A DNA stretch of 64,000 nucleotides from Pseudovibrio sp. Ad37. GTDB taxonomy: Bacteria; Pseudomonadota; Alphaproteobacteria; Rhizobiales; Stappiaceae. The stretch's first letter is position 1. Every line of letters begins with the position of its first letter. Below, in pieces: positions 13,214 through 23,145 of this stretch. The position numbers and the translations under genes were made by a program. The notes under the pieces were generated by a model that saw nothing but the letters and a program-made list of their open reading frames with translations, searched no databases and was not told the origin of the DNA. The DNA lies in the NCBI RefSeq assembly GCF_001623075.1, contig NZ_LMCF01000218.1, positions 62,001-126,000 of the forward strand, written 5' to 3'.

Positions 13214-14631
13214 ACAGTCTCTCCTTTGGGAGAGAGCGCTTCCAGCTCTACAGGCAACTTGTAAGCCCACTGGGTAATGTTCCCTGCACCAAGGCAAATC
13301 ACCAGATCACCCGGCTCCGCCAGCTCTGCAATCTTACCAGCCAGCTCATCAGGACCGGCAATGCTGTGAACCGAACGGTGACCACCAGCACGCAAACCAG
13401 AAATCAGGTCAGCCTGATCAGCCCCTTCAATCGGCTGCTCACCAGCCGCAAACACAGGTGTAATCACAACCTTGTCTGCATCATTGAAGCAGGCACAGAA
13501 ATCTTCAAACAGGCTCTGCAAGCGCGTAAAGCGGTGGGGCTGCATCACAGCAACCACCTTGCCTTCAGCTGCCTCACGTGCCGCATGCAAGACGGACTTA
13601 ATCTCAACCGGATGGTGCGCGTAGTCATCAAAGAACTCTACGTCGTTCCAGGAGCCAGTGTGCGTAAAGCGACGCTTCACTCCGCCAAAGCTTGCAAGCC
13701 CCTTGCGGATGTTCGCATCAGAAATACCGAGAGAATGCGCCAGAGCAATTGCAGCCGTCGCATTGGACACGTTGTGCAGACCCGGCATTGGCAGCACCAG
13801 ATCTTTCAGCTCAGTTACCTTGTCCCCGCGACGATCATGAATGATCACGGTGAAGATGGACTTGCCACCCTTGGTGGAGACATCAGTAAAGCGAACATCT
13901 GACTGCGGGTTGGTGCCGTAAGTGATGATGCGGCGGTCTTCAATCTGACCCACAAGGCTCTGCACCTCTGGGTGATCCAGACACATAACCGCAAATCCGT
14001 AGAACGGAACATTCTCAACGAACTGGGCAAACGCAGCACGGACACCATCAAAATCGCCGTAGTGATCAAGATGCTCAGGATCAATGTTGGTCACCACAGC
14101 AATATCAGCAGGAAGCTTGACGAATGTCCCGTCGGACTCGTCCGCCTCAACCACCATCCAGTCACCCTCACCCATACGGGCATTGGTGCCGTAAGCGTTG
14201 ATGATACCGCCATTGATAACAGTCGGGTCCATATGGCCAGCATCCAGCAGCGCCGCAACCATAGAGGTCGTCGTCGTCTTGCCGTGCGTACCGCCAATGG
14301 CAATCGCTTGCTTGAAGCGCATCAGCTCCGCCAGCATTTCAGCGCGGCGCACAACAGGCATGTTGTTTTCGCGTGCAGCCTTCAGCTCAACATTGCTGCC
14401 TTTGATTGCGGAAGAGATGACACAAACATCAGCGCCCTCAAGGTTCTCGGCAGCATGACCCACCATGACCTTGATGCCCTTATCACGCAAACGCTGCACA
14501 TTTGCATTCTCGGACATGTCAGAGCCCTGAACACGGTAGCCAAGATTATGCAGAACTTCGGCAATACCGCTCATGCCAATGCCGCCGATACCGACGAAGT
14601 GTACTCCCCCAATGTCTACTGGCATTTTCAT
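13210..14631 (-). CDS. murC: UDP-N-acetylmuramate--L-alanine ligase MurC
   Basis: A 473-residue Mur ligase adding L-Ala to UDP-MurNAc. The N-terminal Rossmann motif [14 protein letters not shown] is typical of MurC. The ATP loop is [14 protein letters not shown] (~110-123), the Mur-ligase Glu/His residues lie in [11 protein letters not shown] and [11 protein letters not shown], and [11 protein letters not shown] is in the C-terminal domain. It overlaps the starts or stops of both neighbours (murG, murB) by 4 bp, indicating translational coupling. Confidence 0.97.
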
Positions 14632-19455: not shown

Positions 19456-22400
19456 TCAGGACTTACCGGTTGCAGCCGGTTCAGGAAAACGTTTCTTCAA
19501 GGCATCCACAAGTGGACCCATACGGGTTCCAAGGGAGCCCTTTACCATCACGATGTCGTTGGGACGCACTTCCGACAACAGGTCTTTTTCCAGTTTGTCG
19601 GAGGTCTCTGAATAGGCGCCTCTGGTCTGTGCAGGCAACAGGTCCCAGAGCACCTTCATGTGAGTACCCACACAATAAACCACGTCGATCTTTGCGCGCT
19701 CCAATTCACGCGCAAGGTCTGCGTGCAACTTGTCGGAATCTGCACCTAATTCGAGCATATCTCCCAATACGGCGATGCGACGGCCATTCTTCGCAACGGG
19801 CAGACCAGCCACCAGATTGATCGCAGCGCGCATACTCGCCGGGTTGGCATTATAACTCTCGTCAACAAGCAACGCCGTGCCACCATTCACATCAAGAACG
19901 GTCTGCGCACCACGCCCTTTCGGAGCAGACATTTCCGCCAGAGCCAGACCAGCAAACGCAAGGTTGGCCCCCAGTTCCATGACCCCAGTCAGCACGCCCA
20001 AAGAGTTGATCACATGGTGTGCGCCCGGAGCGCCGATCTTGTAGGAAATCTCCTGCCCGAGAATATTGGCATTCAGACAAGAGCAATCTGGGTTTGCGGC
20101 TACTTTCTTGGCGATAGACTGAGCACCTGGCCGCATGCCAAAGCTGACAATGTTCCGTACCCCGGCCACAGCTGCCAGATAACGCAGCAGGTCATACTGG
20201 CGGTTATCCCGGTTCAGGATCGCCACGCCGCCCTTCTCAATACCACTGAAAATCTCGGCCTTTGCACGCGCAATATCTTCAACTGAGTTAAAGGCTTCCA
20301 GATGCACGGGTTCCACAGTGGTTACGATTGCCACATGCGGACGAACCATTTTCACCAGTGGAGTGATCTCACCCCGGTGGTTCATGCCAATCTCAAAGAT
20401 GCCAAACTCAGTATCAGCATGCATACGCGCCAATGTCAGCGGCACGCCCCAATGGTTATTGAAGCTCGCGACAGGCGCATGGGTGATACCGGACTTGGAC
20501 AGGCAAAGACGCAAAGCTTCTTTCGTGCCTGTCTTGCCTACAGAACCAGTGACCGCGATGATCCGTGCTTTAGAGCGAGCGCGAGCAGCCACACCAAGAC
20601 GCTCTAACGCTTGAAGCACATCATCAACAGCCACGTATCGGCCACCTTCTGGCAGCTCCGCAAGCTTGTCACGCGCAACAACAGCGACGACGGCACCAGC
20701 CTCAACAGCTGTTCCGGCAAATGCATGACCGTCAAAGTTCTCGCCCTTGATCGCAAAGAAGGCATCTCCGGGTTGGATCACCCGACTATCGATAGAGATT
20801 CCGGTTACGTCATCGCTCAGATCACCGTAAACATCCCCATCTACTGCCTCCAGAAAATCGTTAAGCAGCCACAGCGGCCCACGGTCTATTTCAGGCAGTT
20901 CAATCATTTGCCGCTCATATTCCGACTTAATGTCCGGGTCCAATAGGTTGATATGGGGGACGATAGTCCACTCAGGCTTGTCTATCGCTGACTTGAGCTT
21001 TGGTTTTTCTTCGGTTTTGCTCTCGAAAGCAGCGGTCTCAGCCCTCTCAGCAGGCTCCTCAGAAGCAGGTAATCCACCTAATGCTTCTTTACCGTCCTGC
21101 TCATCCGGTTGAGTGGACTGCGATACATCCTCAGTGACCTTGGGAGCAACCTCTTCGAGACCTTCATCCGCAAGAAATGCATCCGCATCCGTGTTTGTCT
21201 CTTCTTCCGGCGCAGGAGCACTCTCAGCGTCTGCGTCTGCCTCAACCTTCTCCTCGGCTTCGGCTTCGGCTTCGGCTTCGTTAGCCGCTAAATCACCCAG
21301 CAGCTCGTCTTCAAGTGCATCCGGTGTGTCTTCCGCAACATTCGGAAAGCCATCCTTGCCAAAATCAGGATCATGGCTTTCAACATCAGCTAATTCTGCA
21401 TCTGCCAGATCATCAGCACCCAGAACGTCTTCTTCCAGCGCCAGCCAGTCTTCTTCCTCTTGGTCCTGCGCATCATCGGGGTTTTCCGGCAGAGCAGCTT
21501 CCAGCTCCTCAACACCAGCCTGAACCGCAGCCAATAGATCATCATCATCCAGCGCGTCTGCAGCAGCAAGCTCATCACCTTCATCTGCAAGAAGATCCAT
21601 CTCATCCAGATCAAGTGAGATCTCAGGGAGGTCATTCTCAACAGCAGGAGAAGCGCCATTTTCAGCAGAAGCTTCGGCCAGTGCCTTCTGGATTTCTTCA
21701 TGGTCAGAGAAAGGCAGGACTTCTGTTCCAACAATCTGCCCTGTTTCATGCCCCTTACCGGCCACACAAAGCACATCGCCTTCTTGCAACATCTTCACCG
21801 CTTGGCGGATGGCAAGAGCACGATCCCCAATCTCAAGAGCAGCAGGACAGGCAGCAACAATCTCCTCACGAATTTTGTCAGGATCTTCCGTGCGCGGATT
21901 ATCGTCAGTCACAATGGAAACATCCGCAAGACGATCAGAAATCTCGCCCATCAACGGACGTTTACCCGCATCACGATCACCGCCACACCCCAACACACTG
22001 ATCAGGCGACCAGCCGCAAAGGGACGCAAGGCTGCAAGCACATTCTCCAGCGCTTCCGGCTTATGAGCATAATCAACGAATACCAGAGCACCGTTTTCAC
22101 GTGTGCCCACATGCTCAATCCGGCCCGGCGCACCACGCAGAACAGTCAGCGCTTCAAGAACAGTTTGAAGCTCTACACCAGCAGAAATTGCCAGACCTGC
22201 AGCAATCAGCGCATTGCTCACCTGAAAATCACCAGCCAGCGGCAACGCAACAGAAAACACGCCCTCAGCCGTTTCCAGCTCAAGAACCTGACTGAACCCT
22301 TCGGGCTGAACGCTAAGCACCTTTAGATCATCGCCGAAGACACCCGTCGTAAACGTCTTAAGGCCGCGCTCCTCTGCATTCGCAAGAACGCGGTCAGCAA

Positions 22401-23145
22401 ATTGCGTTTCCGGGTCAACGACAACCACACCATCATCCGGCAGCAAATCGCAGAACAAACGCAATTTTGCCTGAAGGTAGTCTTCCACCGTTGGGTGGTA
22501 GTCCATGTGGTCTCGGCCAAGGTTGGTAAAACCAGCTGCAACAATTTGCACACCATCAAGACGATGCTGATCCAACCCGTGACTGGACGCCTCCAAGGCC
22601 GCATGGGTAATCCCATCCTCAGCCAGACGCTTAAGGTCTTCATGCAAAGACACAGGGTCAGGCGTGGTCAATCCGCCATAGCTCTGCCCTGTCGATGTGA
22701 CAGTACCAATAGTTCCAAGACTGGCAGAAACCAACCCGGCATATTCAAAGATCTGACGCACGAAAACAGCAACAGAAGTTTTGCCCGCAGTGCCAGTCAC
22801 AGCAACCATCTTCTCAGGCTGTTTGCCAGAGAAAGCCGCAGCCATCAAAGCAAGTTCCCGGCGCGCATCTTGTGCAGCGATCAGCGGAACCTGTTTGGCT
22901 TGCTTGCGAATATCATCAGAAAGTCTGTCCGCATCAATCAAAATGGCAGCAGCACCCGCGTCCACGGCTTGCTCGATAAACTGCGCACCATCAACTTTCG
23001 CGCCCTTAAGGGCAGCAAAAACAAAACCGGGCTCCACTGCTCGACTATCAGCAGTAAGCCCCGAAATATTAAGAGTATCAACCCCGTCTGGCCCATCGCC
23101 CTCGGCGGAGATTATCTCTTGTTTTGTAAGGTCTTTAAGCAACAT
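19456..23145 (-). CDS. murEF: Fused MurE-MurF ligase with a long acidic linker
   Basis: A single 1229-residue open frame with two complete Mur ligases. Residues 1 to about 482 are MurE: ATP loop VTGTAGKTS (116-124), DHMDYH, and the meso-diaminopimelate selectivity motif DNPR (~414), so this half should add meso-DAP. Residues about 483-755 are a low-complexity linker dominated by Glu, Asp and Ala, including an EAEAEAEAEE run. Residues about 757-1229 are MurF: SRVIQPGDAFFAIKGENFDGH, ATP loop VTGSVGKTG (~866), NHRGEI and DESYNANPASM. MurF adds D-Ala-D-Ala. Adjacent separate genes are usual in this class; here they form one polypeptide. No stop or start signal separates the halves. Confidence 0.95.
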   Translation of the reverse strand: MLLKDLTKQEIISAEGDGPDGVDTLNISGLTADSRAVEPGFVFAALKGAKVDGAQFIEQAVDAGAAAILIDADRLSDDIRKQAKQVPLIAAQDARRELALMAAAFSGKQPEKMVAVTGTAGKTSVAVFVRQIFEYAGLVSASLGTIGTVTSTGQSYGGLTTPDPVSLHEDLKRLAEDGITHAALEASSHGLDQHRLDGVQIVAAGFTNLGRDHMDYHPTVEDYLQAKLRLFCDLLPDDGVVVVDPETQFADRVLANAEERGLKTFTTGVFGDDLKVLSVQPEGFSQVLELETAEGVFSVALPLAGDFQVSNALIAAGLAISAGVELQTVLEALTVLRGAPGRIEHVGTRENGALVFVDYAHKPEALENVLAALRPFAAGRLISVLGCGGDRDAGKRPLMGEISDRLADVSIVTDDNPRTEDPDKIREEIVAACPAALEIGDRALAIRQAVKMLQEGDVLCVAGKGHETGQIVGTEVLPFSDHEEIQKALAEASAENGASPAVENDLPEISLDLDEMDLLADEGDELAAADALDDDDLLAAVQAGVEELEAALPENPDDAQDQEEEDWLALEEDVLGADDLADAELADVESHDPDFGKDGFPNVAEDTPDALEDELLGDLAANEAEAEAEAEEKVEADADAESAPAPEEETNTDADAFLADEGLEEVAPKVTEDVSQSTQPDEQDGKEALGGLPASEEPAERAETAAFESKTEEKPKLKSAIDKPEWTIVPHINLLDPDIKSEYERQMIELPEIDRGPLWLLNDFLEAVDGDVYGDLSDDVTGISIDSRVIQPGDAFFAIKGENFDGHAFAGTAVEAGAVVAVVARDKLAELPEGGRYVAVDDVLQALERLGVAARARSKARIIAVTGSVGKTGTKEALRLCLSKSGITHAPVASFNNHWGVPLTLARMHADTEFGIFEIGMNHRGEITPLVKMVRPHVAIVTTVEPVHLEAFNSVEDIARAKAEIFSGIEKGGVAILNRDNRQYDLLRYLAAVAGVRNIVSFGMRPGAQSIAKKVAANPDCSCLNANILGQEISYKIGAPGAHHVINSLGVLTGVMELGANLAFAGLALAEMSAPKGRGAQTVLDVNGGTALLVDESYNANPASMRAAINLVAGLPVAKNGRRIAVLGDMLELGADSDKLHADLARELERAKIDVVYCVGTHMKVLWDLLPAQTRGAYSETSDKLEKDLLSEVRPNDIVMVKGSLGTRMGPLVDALKKRFPEPAATGKS
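21253..21279. repeat. Hexanucleotide repeat in the MurEF linker
   Basis: Four consecutive copies of a 6-bp unit (CGGCTT on the plus strand) encode the Glu-Ala run of the acidic linker. Copy-number change would stay in frame and alter linker length only. Confidence 0.7.

Follow-up and report, generated by a model that had tools for sequence, protein, structure and literature searches.

A MurE-MurF fusion protein with a long, acidic and presumably disordered spacer in Pseudovibrio and related Stappiaceae

The window analysed here, a stretch of 64,000 nucleotides from Pseudovibrio sp. Ad37 (family Stappiaceae, order Hyphomicrobiales; genome size 5.9 Mb), encodes MurE and MurF, two consecutive ligases of cell-wall synthesis, as one polypeptide with an acidic spacer of 262 residues between the enzymes. 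The closest named relative of the genome is P. ascidiaceicola (98%), in a comparison that may lack records of the window's own species. Judged from sequence comparisons, the fusion in Pseudovibrio is genuine and not an artefact. Our preferred explanation, which we regard as probable but far from secure, is that a long tether, disordered and polyanionic, connects two folded ligases and is kept for its charge more than for its sequence and resized by repeat slippage.

On the minus strand, a single uninterrupted frame of 1229 codons opens with the ATG at position 23145, closes with the stop at position 19456 and contains both ligases, which is the architecture of a bifunctional MurE/MurF protein. 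Both parts score above the curated cut-offs of their families. The MurE part reached 526 bits with TIGR01085 (cut-off 257) and 704 with PRK00139.1-2 (476), the MurF part 505 bits with TIGR01143 (289) and 729 with PRK14093.1 (544). With PRK11929.1, the model for bifunctional MurE/MurF, the protein scored 850.9 bits, under the cut-off of 1023, and it therefore falls outside that equivalog. In MurE, the P-loop TGTxGKTS (residues 117-124), Lys227 and the DNPR sequence (residues 415-418) are invariant across 24 aligned sequences. DNPR marks specificity for meso-diaminopimelic acid. The best match among solved chains was 8f5d, a 'Multifunctional fusion protein' of 803 amino acids. The gene is the sole full-length copy in its genome, where the one other match, presumably murC, is weak (28% identity; window 13543-14097, beyond murG). 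The genuine fusion of two consecutive ligases proposed in the initial annotation is thus borne out by the unbroken frame and both family profiles. The long acidic linker, placed there at residues 483-755, is present as well, but is slightly shorter by alignment (494-755).

Within the family, the fusion was found in 33 of 87 genomes, in 31 of them in one frame; the other two, G005 and G077, are inferred as fused because the gene is split at contig ends inside the spacer repeat. With these two included, all genomes of Pseudovibrio (16/16) and of the genera labelled g3 (3/3) and g7 (14/14) are fused, and none of g2 (0/3), g4 (0/5), g5 (0/1) and g6, which is Roseibium (0/45). A search for the fusion in relatives and for separate genes in sister taxa, as had been suggested, thus found both. 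The 54 genomes with separate genes have frames of 436-637 amino acids, too short to hold both ligases. Roseibium and the other unfused genera carry the same enzymes in the same cluster as the window, but in two frames: the murF ATG overlaps the murE TGA (ATGA) in all 14 unfused family genomes read at sequence level, a Shine-Dalgarno sequence precedes murF in 12 of the 12 scored, and the MurE tail consists of a few residues and lacks an acidic chain. Shine-Dalgarno pairing at these separate murF genes, in the 12 family genomes and two outgroups, ranged from -5.9 to -12.8 kcal/mol. In the unfused genome G017 (C1:3620483-3621703), the MurF match stops early, at query residue 1161 in a frame of 436 amino acids, and a frameshift or a divergent end is possible there.

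The spacer of the window is composed of 34% aspartate plus glutamate, 16% alanine and 5% lysine plus arginine, and has a net charge of -75. Its most acidic 150 residues carry a net charge of -58, a value matched by none of 511 frames sampled from the relative G003; these were stop-to-stop frames of at least 150 amino acids, not all of them genes, from 380 kb with the genome's own fusion left out. The next most acidic frame, at -51, encodes a protein named RNase E-like from reading its sequence (L217). Like the spacer, this cytoplasmic enzyme of the same genus has long Glu/Ala-rich acidic stretches of low complexity. Unlike the spacer, it mixes them with strongly basic stretches, joins no ligases and contains no hexamer array of at least five copies. 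The 31 spacers from one-frame fusions vary in length from 18 to 693 amino acids, with 24-44% aspartate plus glutamate and 0-6% lysine plus arginine. For 30 spacers, acidity was confined to the coding frame, which averaged 0.33 while the means of the five alternative frames were 0.01-0.05, and the net charge per residue was -0.29 (standard deviation 0.04). A search of the Ad37 genome for another gene of which the spacer might be a duplicate returned the spacer itself only.

By charge and hydropathy, all 30 spacers of at least 100 amino acids lie on the disordered side. Two AlphaFold models, covering residues 470-1229 and 1-760, gave a predicted local distance difference test score (pLDDT) mostly above 85 for the ligases and mostly below 50 for the spacer (below 50 at residues 496-533, 548-556, 558-562, 564-738 and 742-752 in one model and at 498-533, 551-616, 625-735 and 749-760 in the other). 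Both results agree with the earlier reading of the spacer as a region without fold signature.

Between clades, the comparisons indicate that the sequence of the spacer is not conserved whereas its acidity is. Substitution patterns were compared in nine core Pseudovibrio genomes, leaving out the split gene of G005 from the same group. The ratio of nonsynonymous to synonymous substitution rates (dN/dS) was 0.067 for MurE, 0.262 for the spacer and 0.058 for MurF. At spacer residues 491-715, acidic sites became non-acidic in 0.180 of comparisons, whereas other sites changed in 0.445; the corresponding values are 0.086 and 0.115 for MurE and 0.076 and 0.088 for MurF. As the two measures are not alike, only the contrast between regions counts. 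In the four closest genomes, acidic loss and other change amounted to 0.047 and 0.164, respectively, for the spacer, to 0.034 and 0.042 for MurE and to 0.009 and 0.025 for MurF. One part of the spacer, block A (Table 1), is moderately conserved at the protein level (dN/dS 0.149, with 5 of 36 pairs lacking a dS value), and its synonymous sites show no constraint in core Pseudovibrio.

The hexanucleotide tract of the window, four copies long, is expanded in relatives. Several spacers contain perfect hexanucleotide arrays, namely CCGAAG in 93 copies together with CAGAGC in 14 (G004), CGAAGC in 12 (G003) and in 10 copies (G011), CCGAGC in 21 (G086), CGCAGA in 16 (G083) and CAGAAG in 12 (G081). At least five perfect copies of GCCGAA occurred in 5 of the 87 family genomes, and the places listed lie without exception in the murE-murF spacer or at two contig ends that break there; the contigs of G005 and G077 terminate inside the array. 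In G004, the search count of 88 is consistent with one array, and all places listed are in the spacer. The reversed-pattern control for GCCGAA was not independent, being the same repeat in another phase. In the 380-kb sample of G003, no hexamer array of at least five copies was present. Length differences among G000, G001, G011 and G003 fall in and beside the hexanucleotide tract. Since the repeat unit has six bases, the reading frame is kept, and we infer that slippage of the repeat resizes the tether.

Table 1. Features of the murE-murF fusion gene and their positions in the window.
Feature	Position	Strand	Size or basis
murE-murF fusion gene	19456..23145	minus	1229 amino acids plus stop
MurE part, residues 1-493	21667..23145	minus	family profiles, alignment
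Acidic spacer, residues 494-755, 262 amino acids	20881..21666	minus	alignment to separate relatives
Block A of the spacer, residues 505-552	21490..21633	minus	core Pseudovibrio comparison, AlphaFold
Hexanucleotide tract, 4 perfect copies of AGCCGA (coding strand), Glu-Ala repeats	21254..21277	minus	
Block C of the spacer, residues 716-755	20881..21000	minus	conservation in 9 core Pseudovibrio genomes
In-frame ATG (Met747) in block C, possible internal MurF start	20905..20907	minus	
MurF part, residues 756-1229	19459..20880	minus	family profiles, AlphaFold

In the mechanism that we propose, the hexanucleotide repeat would slip at replication and add or remove two residues each time (Glu-Ala, Glu-Pro or Asp-Ala), so that the frame would survive while the tether lengthens or shortens. 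Selection would retain an acidic chain poor in lysine and arginine, rather than a binding motif. Such a chain would stay extended and soluble, would keep off nucleic acid, nucleotide-linked substrate and membrane, and would hold the two enzymes apart. The benefit of the fusion would most likely be a fixed 1:1 supply and the co-localisation of successive enzymes. Electrostatic channelling is disfavoured because the intermediate, uridine diphosphate-N-acetylmuramic acid-tripeptide, is an anion that the tether would repel. A Gaussian-chain estimate (5.5 Å × N^0.59, a scaling taken from general knowledge) gives about 147 Å and an effective concentration of 0.17 mM for 262 residues, compared with 20 mM for 18 residues and 0.03 mM for 693. 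With effective concentrations so widely spread among relatives, it is less plausible that the tether is tuned for direct transfer. MurE and MurF are generally essential; if our explanation is true, an unusual variable-number repeat resides inside a presumably essential biosynthetic enzyme. Moreover, joins of 0-693 residues in one two-enzyme fusion form a natural length series, which makes the question of channelling, stoichiometry or co-localisation directly testable.

Several observations weigh against this explanation. Among single-base changes of Asp and Glu codons, the share that keeps the charge was 0.71 in the spacer (0.21 expected), 0.62 in MurE and 0.65 in MurF, and in the four closest genomes 0.82, 0.64 and 0.87, respectively. 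The share in the spacer is barely above that of the ligases, and therefore the spectrum alone is no proof of selection for charge. In the four closest genomes, the ratio of acidic loss to other change in MurF is also similar to that in the spacer. In all these comparisons, genome pairs are non-independent and the alignment may favour acid-acid matches. As to disorder, weak helices are predicted at residues 534-551, 556-574, 612-632 and 737-748, and the AlphaFold models are single-chain models based on 26 and 24 sequences, only 6 of them with a spacer. Block C is conserved as protein in the nine core Pseudovibrio genomes, in the manner of a functional element. Each species was represented by one genome, so that the copy-number differences seen are differences between species. 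Finally, a long tether is unnecessary for fusion, as seen from the 18-residue spacer of G006 and from 12 fusions in other Alphaproteobacteria with joins of 0-20 residues. G006 shows spacer length to be dispensable in that species.

Among the alternatives, a nearly neutral spacer fares best, and we consider it a serious though improbable one. Slippage and drift would then shape the region, any soluble chain would be tolerated, and acidity would be a by-product of those repeats that happen to be expandable. The length range of the spacers, the lack of general sequence conservation across clades and the short spacer of G006 would all fit, as would the charge-keeping changes, which are just slightly more frequent than in the folded domains. 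Against this reading, all 31 spacers are acidic, yet perfect dipeptide repeats of at least four units occur in just 13 of the 31 and cover at most 31% of any one. In addition, loss of charge at acidic sites is far rarer than change at the remaining sites.

Less likely, in our view, is that a further protein of cell-wall synthesis, for example MurG, docks on the spacer by way of short acidic-hydrophobic helices. Block A with its low dN/dS and its helix at about residues 534-551, which appears in both AlphaFold models with a pLDDT of about 50-60, is compatible with this idea, and acidic-hydrophobic patches are visible by eye in several spacers. Furthermore, the MurE-MurF protein of Bordetella is described as binding MurG with a micromolar dissociation constant, and E. 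coli MurG as having a basic membrane patch, in the portion of the source drawn on here (PMC6420597). Searches for a shared motif gave little. A motif derived from the 11 spacers of g3 and g7 scored above shuffled sequences (5% level) in one of seven Pseudovibrio spacers (G008, 12/500), and a motif derived from these seven did so in one of the 11 (G081, 2/500). Hydrophobic clustering in 21 chosen spacers was near that of shuffles (mean z 0.59) and exceeded chance in three, G004 (z 6.0; this spacer also holds the 93-copy repeat), G014 (p 0.02) and G083 (p 0.04). MurG is not more basic where the fusion exists (mean net charge +3.2 in 17 fused taxa vs +6.1 in 14 taxa with separate genes), and the spacer of G006 measures 18 residues. 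The suggestion in the initial annotation that the linker might bind another protein thus has little support: apart from scattered hits no motif is shared across clades, clustering is found in 3 of 21 spacers and MurG is not more basic. The weakly predicted spacer helices are still candidates for partner binding.

Equally doubtful is an internal start at Met747 in block C, which in core Pseudovibrio would yield free MurF beside the fusion. Its attraction lies in the synonymous sites. At residues 716-756, synonymous change was 0.168 against 0.365 expected, a value that none of 20,000 amino-acid-matched draws reached; in subsets, draws as low numbered 0/5000 (six genomes), 6/5000 (four genomes) and 298/5000 and 52/5000 (two single pairs). 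The constraint was weaker at residues 751-780 (160/20,000 draws) and absent at 757-800. The first 30 codons of murE-murF are constrained as well (0.171 vs 0.380 expected; 6/20,000 draws), and an in-frame ATG is present in block C of 9/9 core genomes. On the other hand, the Shine-Dalgarno pairing of Met747 is weak, with -3.5 kcal/mol as opposed to the values at separate murF genes given above, and block C begins about 30 codons upstream of the ATG. Synonymous constraint in core Pseudovibrio also affects the 90 codons that end the murF part, just before mraY (19456-19725, minus strand), and such a signal therefore does not mark starts alone; moreover, values as low as that of block C are found in 22 of 712 equal-size runs of the gene. 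Block C showed neither a promoter match nor RNA structure (fold z +0.63). A junction signal was absent from six further groups of fused genes, although the murE start gave a clear one in three of them (g7A, g7B and g3); the remaining three are two-genome groups of low power. In some other fused genes, e.g. those of G014, G082, G081, G075 and G086, in-frame starts that pair more strongly are scattered along the sequence. A copying of block C from another gene was considered and rejected, as among the 87 genomes it matches only the spacers of 10 Pseudovibrio genomes, other hits having E values of 0.036 or weaker. If an internal start were combined with a linker that adjusts by slippage within populations, both the length of the tether and the balance between fused and free MurF would be tunable, a combination that we think slightly less likely still.

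An artefact, be it a frameshift, an assembly join or a pseudogene, is refuted: a local frameshift or mis-join is unlikely because the same architecture recurs in the assemblies of many species, and both domains are under purifying selection.

The origin of the fusion is less clear than its reality. In a tree of 31 taxa built on five genes that flank the locus, Pseudovibrio and g3 plus g7 form separate clades beside an unfused clade of g4-g6. A single origin was compatible with the flanking genes (approximately unbiased test, p 0.376), with p falling to 0.044 when murE and murF were added (29 taxa). By these trees, there may have been one fusion, two fusions, or one fusion followed by a later split. 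G006 is the sister of G015, whose spacer has 166 residues, and because it is nested in a genus with long spacers, its short spacer is most simply explained as a secondary loss.

Outside the family, MurE-MurF fusions occur with short joins; the following counts cover genes not cut by contig ends. The order was sampled with 140 genomes; MurE was matched in 138 of them, and 15 had a frame of at least 800 amino acids. Twelve of the 15 are fused, three from Stappiaceae (Ad37 itself, G020 and G021) and nine from four other families (G103, G214; G143, G179, G096; G166; G126, G165, G199), the latter with joins of 3-20 residues. A class sample of 133 genomes gave 117 with a MurE match and five more frames of at least 778 amino acids; G294, G311 and G327 carry fusions whose joins measure 0-3 residues, G272 combines MurE with an incomplete MurF in a frame of 803 amino acids, and no MurF was found in the stretch read from G243. 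In the phylum sample (140 genomes, 130 matched), none of five newly read frames of at least 900 amino acids was a MurE-MurF fusion; two further frames in this sample measure 802 and 818 amino acids. In total, 12 alphaproteobacterial fusions from outside the family were read (L174, L175, L179-L185, L194-L196). They share domain order and fusion point with the window protein, but their joins measure 0-20 residues and contain 0-20% aspartate plus glutamate where they have at least seven. Fusion of MurE to MurF is therefore, as far as these sequences show, recurrent in Alphaproteobacteria, while among the genomes examined a long acidic spacer was found only in Stappiaceae. Some candidates were discarded. 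The surplus length of the frames in G096 (1637 amino acids) and G179 (1099 amino acids) lies upstream of MurE, with a join of 3 residues; a triple FtsI-MurE-MurF fusion in G096 was dropped since the upstream part, judged by eye, is not FtsI-like in that frame. In G161, G120, G185, G377, G387, G394 and G409, the long frames proved to have MurE and MurF in different frames, and in G449 the frame passes through masked N and no MurF was seen.

A 2019 paper (PMC6420597), in the portion drawn on here, already names Pseudovibrio spp. among organisms with MurE and MurF in one polypeptide. The same portion reports both activities for the purified Bordetella fusion protein. The protein of Bordetella pertussis resembles that of the window in having MurE followed by MurF in one polypeptide; its linker is given there as about 20 residues, compared with the 262 acidic residues of the window (PMC6420597). 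The initial annotation had considered the fusion possibly independent in Alphaproteobacteria. It did arise within this class, given that other genera of the family have separate genes, but it had been published for Pseudovibrio and recurs elsewhere with short joins. Unlike the fusion, the long acidic spacer with its hexanucleotide repeat appears to be undescribed, as suggested by an open-access literature search, limited to titles and the beginnings of abstracts and covering few subscription papers, which found no description of the spacer or of its DNA repeat.

In the window, the fusion gene is part of a cell-division and cell-wall cluster on the minus strand in the order mraZ, rsmH, an ftsL-like open reading frame (named from position and appearance only), an ftsI-like penicillin-binding protein gene, murE-murF, mraY, murD, ftsW and murG. 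Two observations concern the charge of Mur enzymes encoded in this cluster. MurD is strongly acidic in Pseudovibrio, not in g3 or g7, and the mean net charge of the MurE part is -24 where the genes are fused (17 taxa) but only -7 where they are separate (14 taxa).

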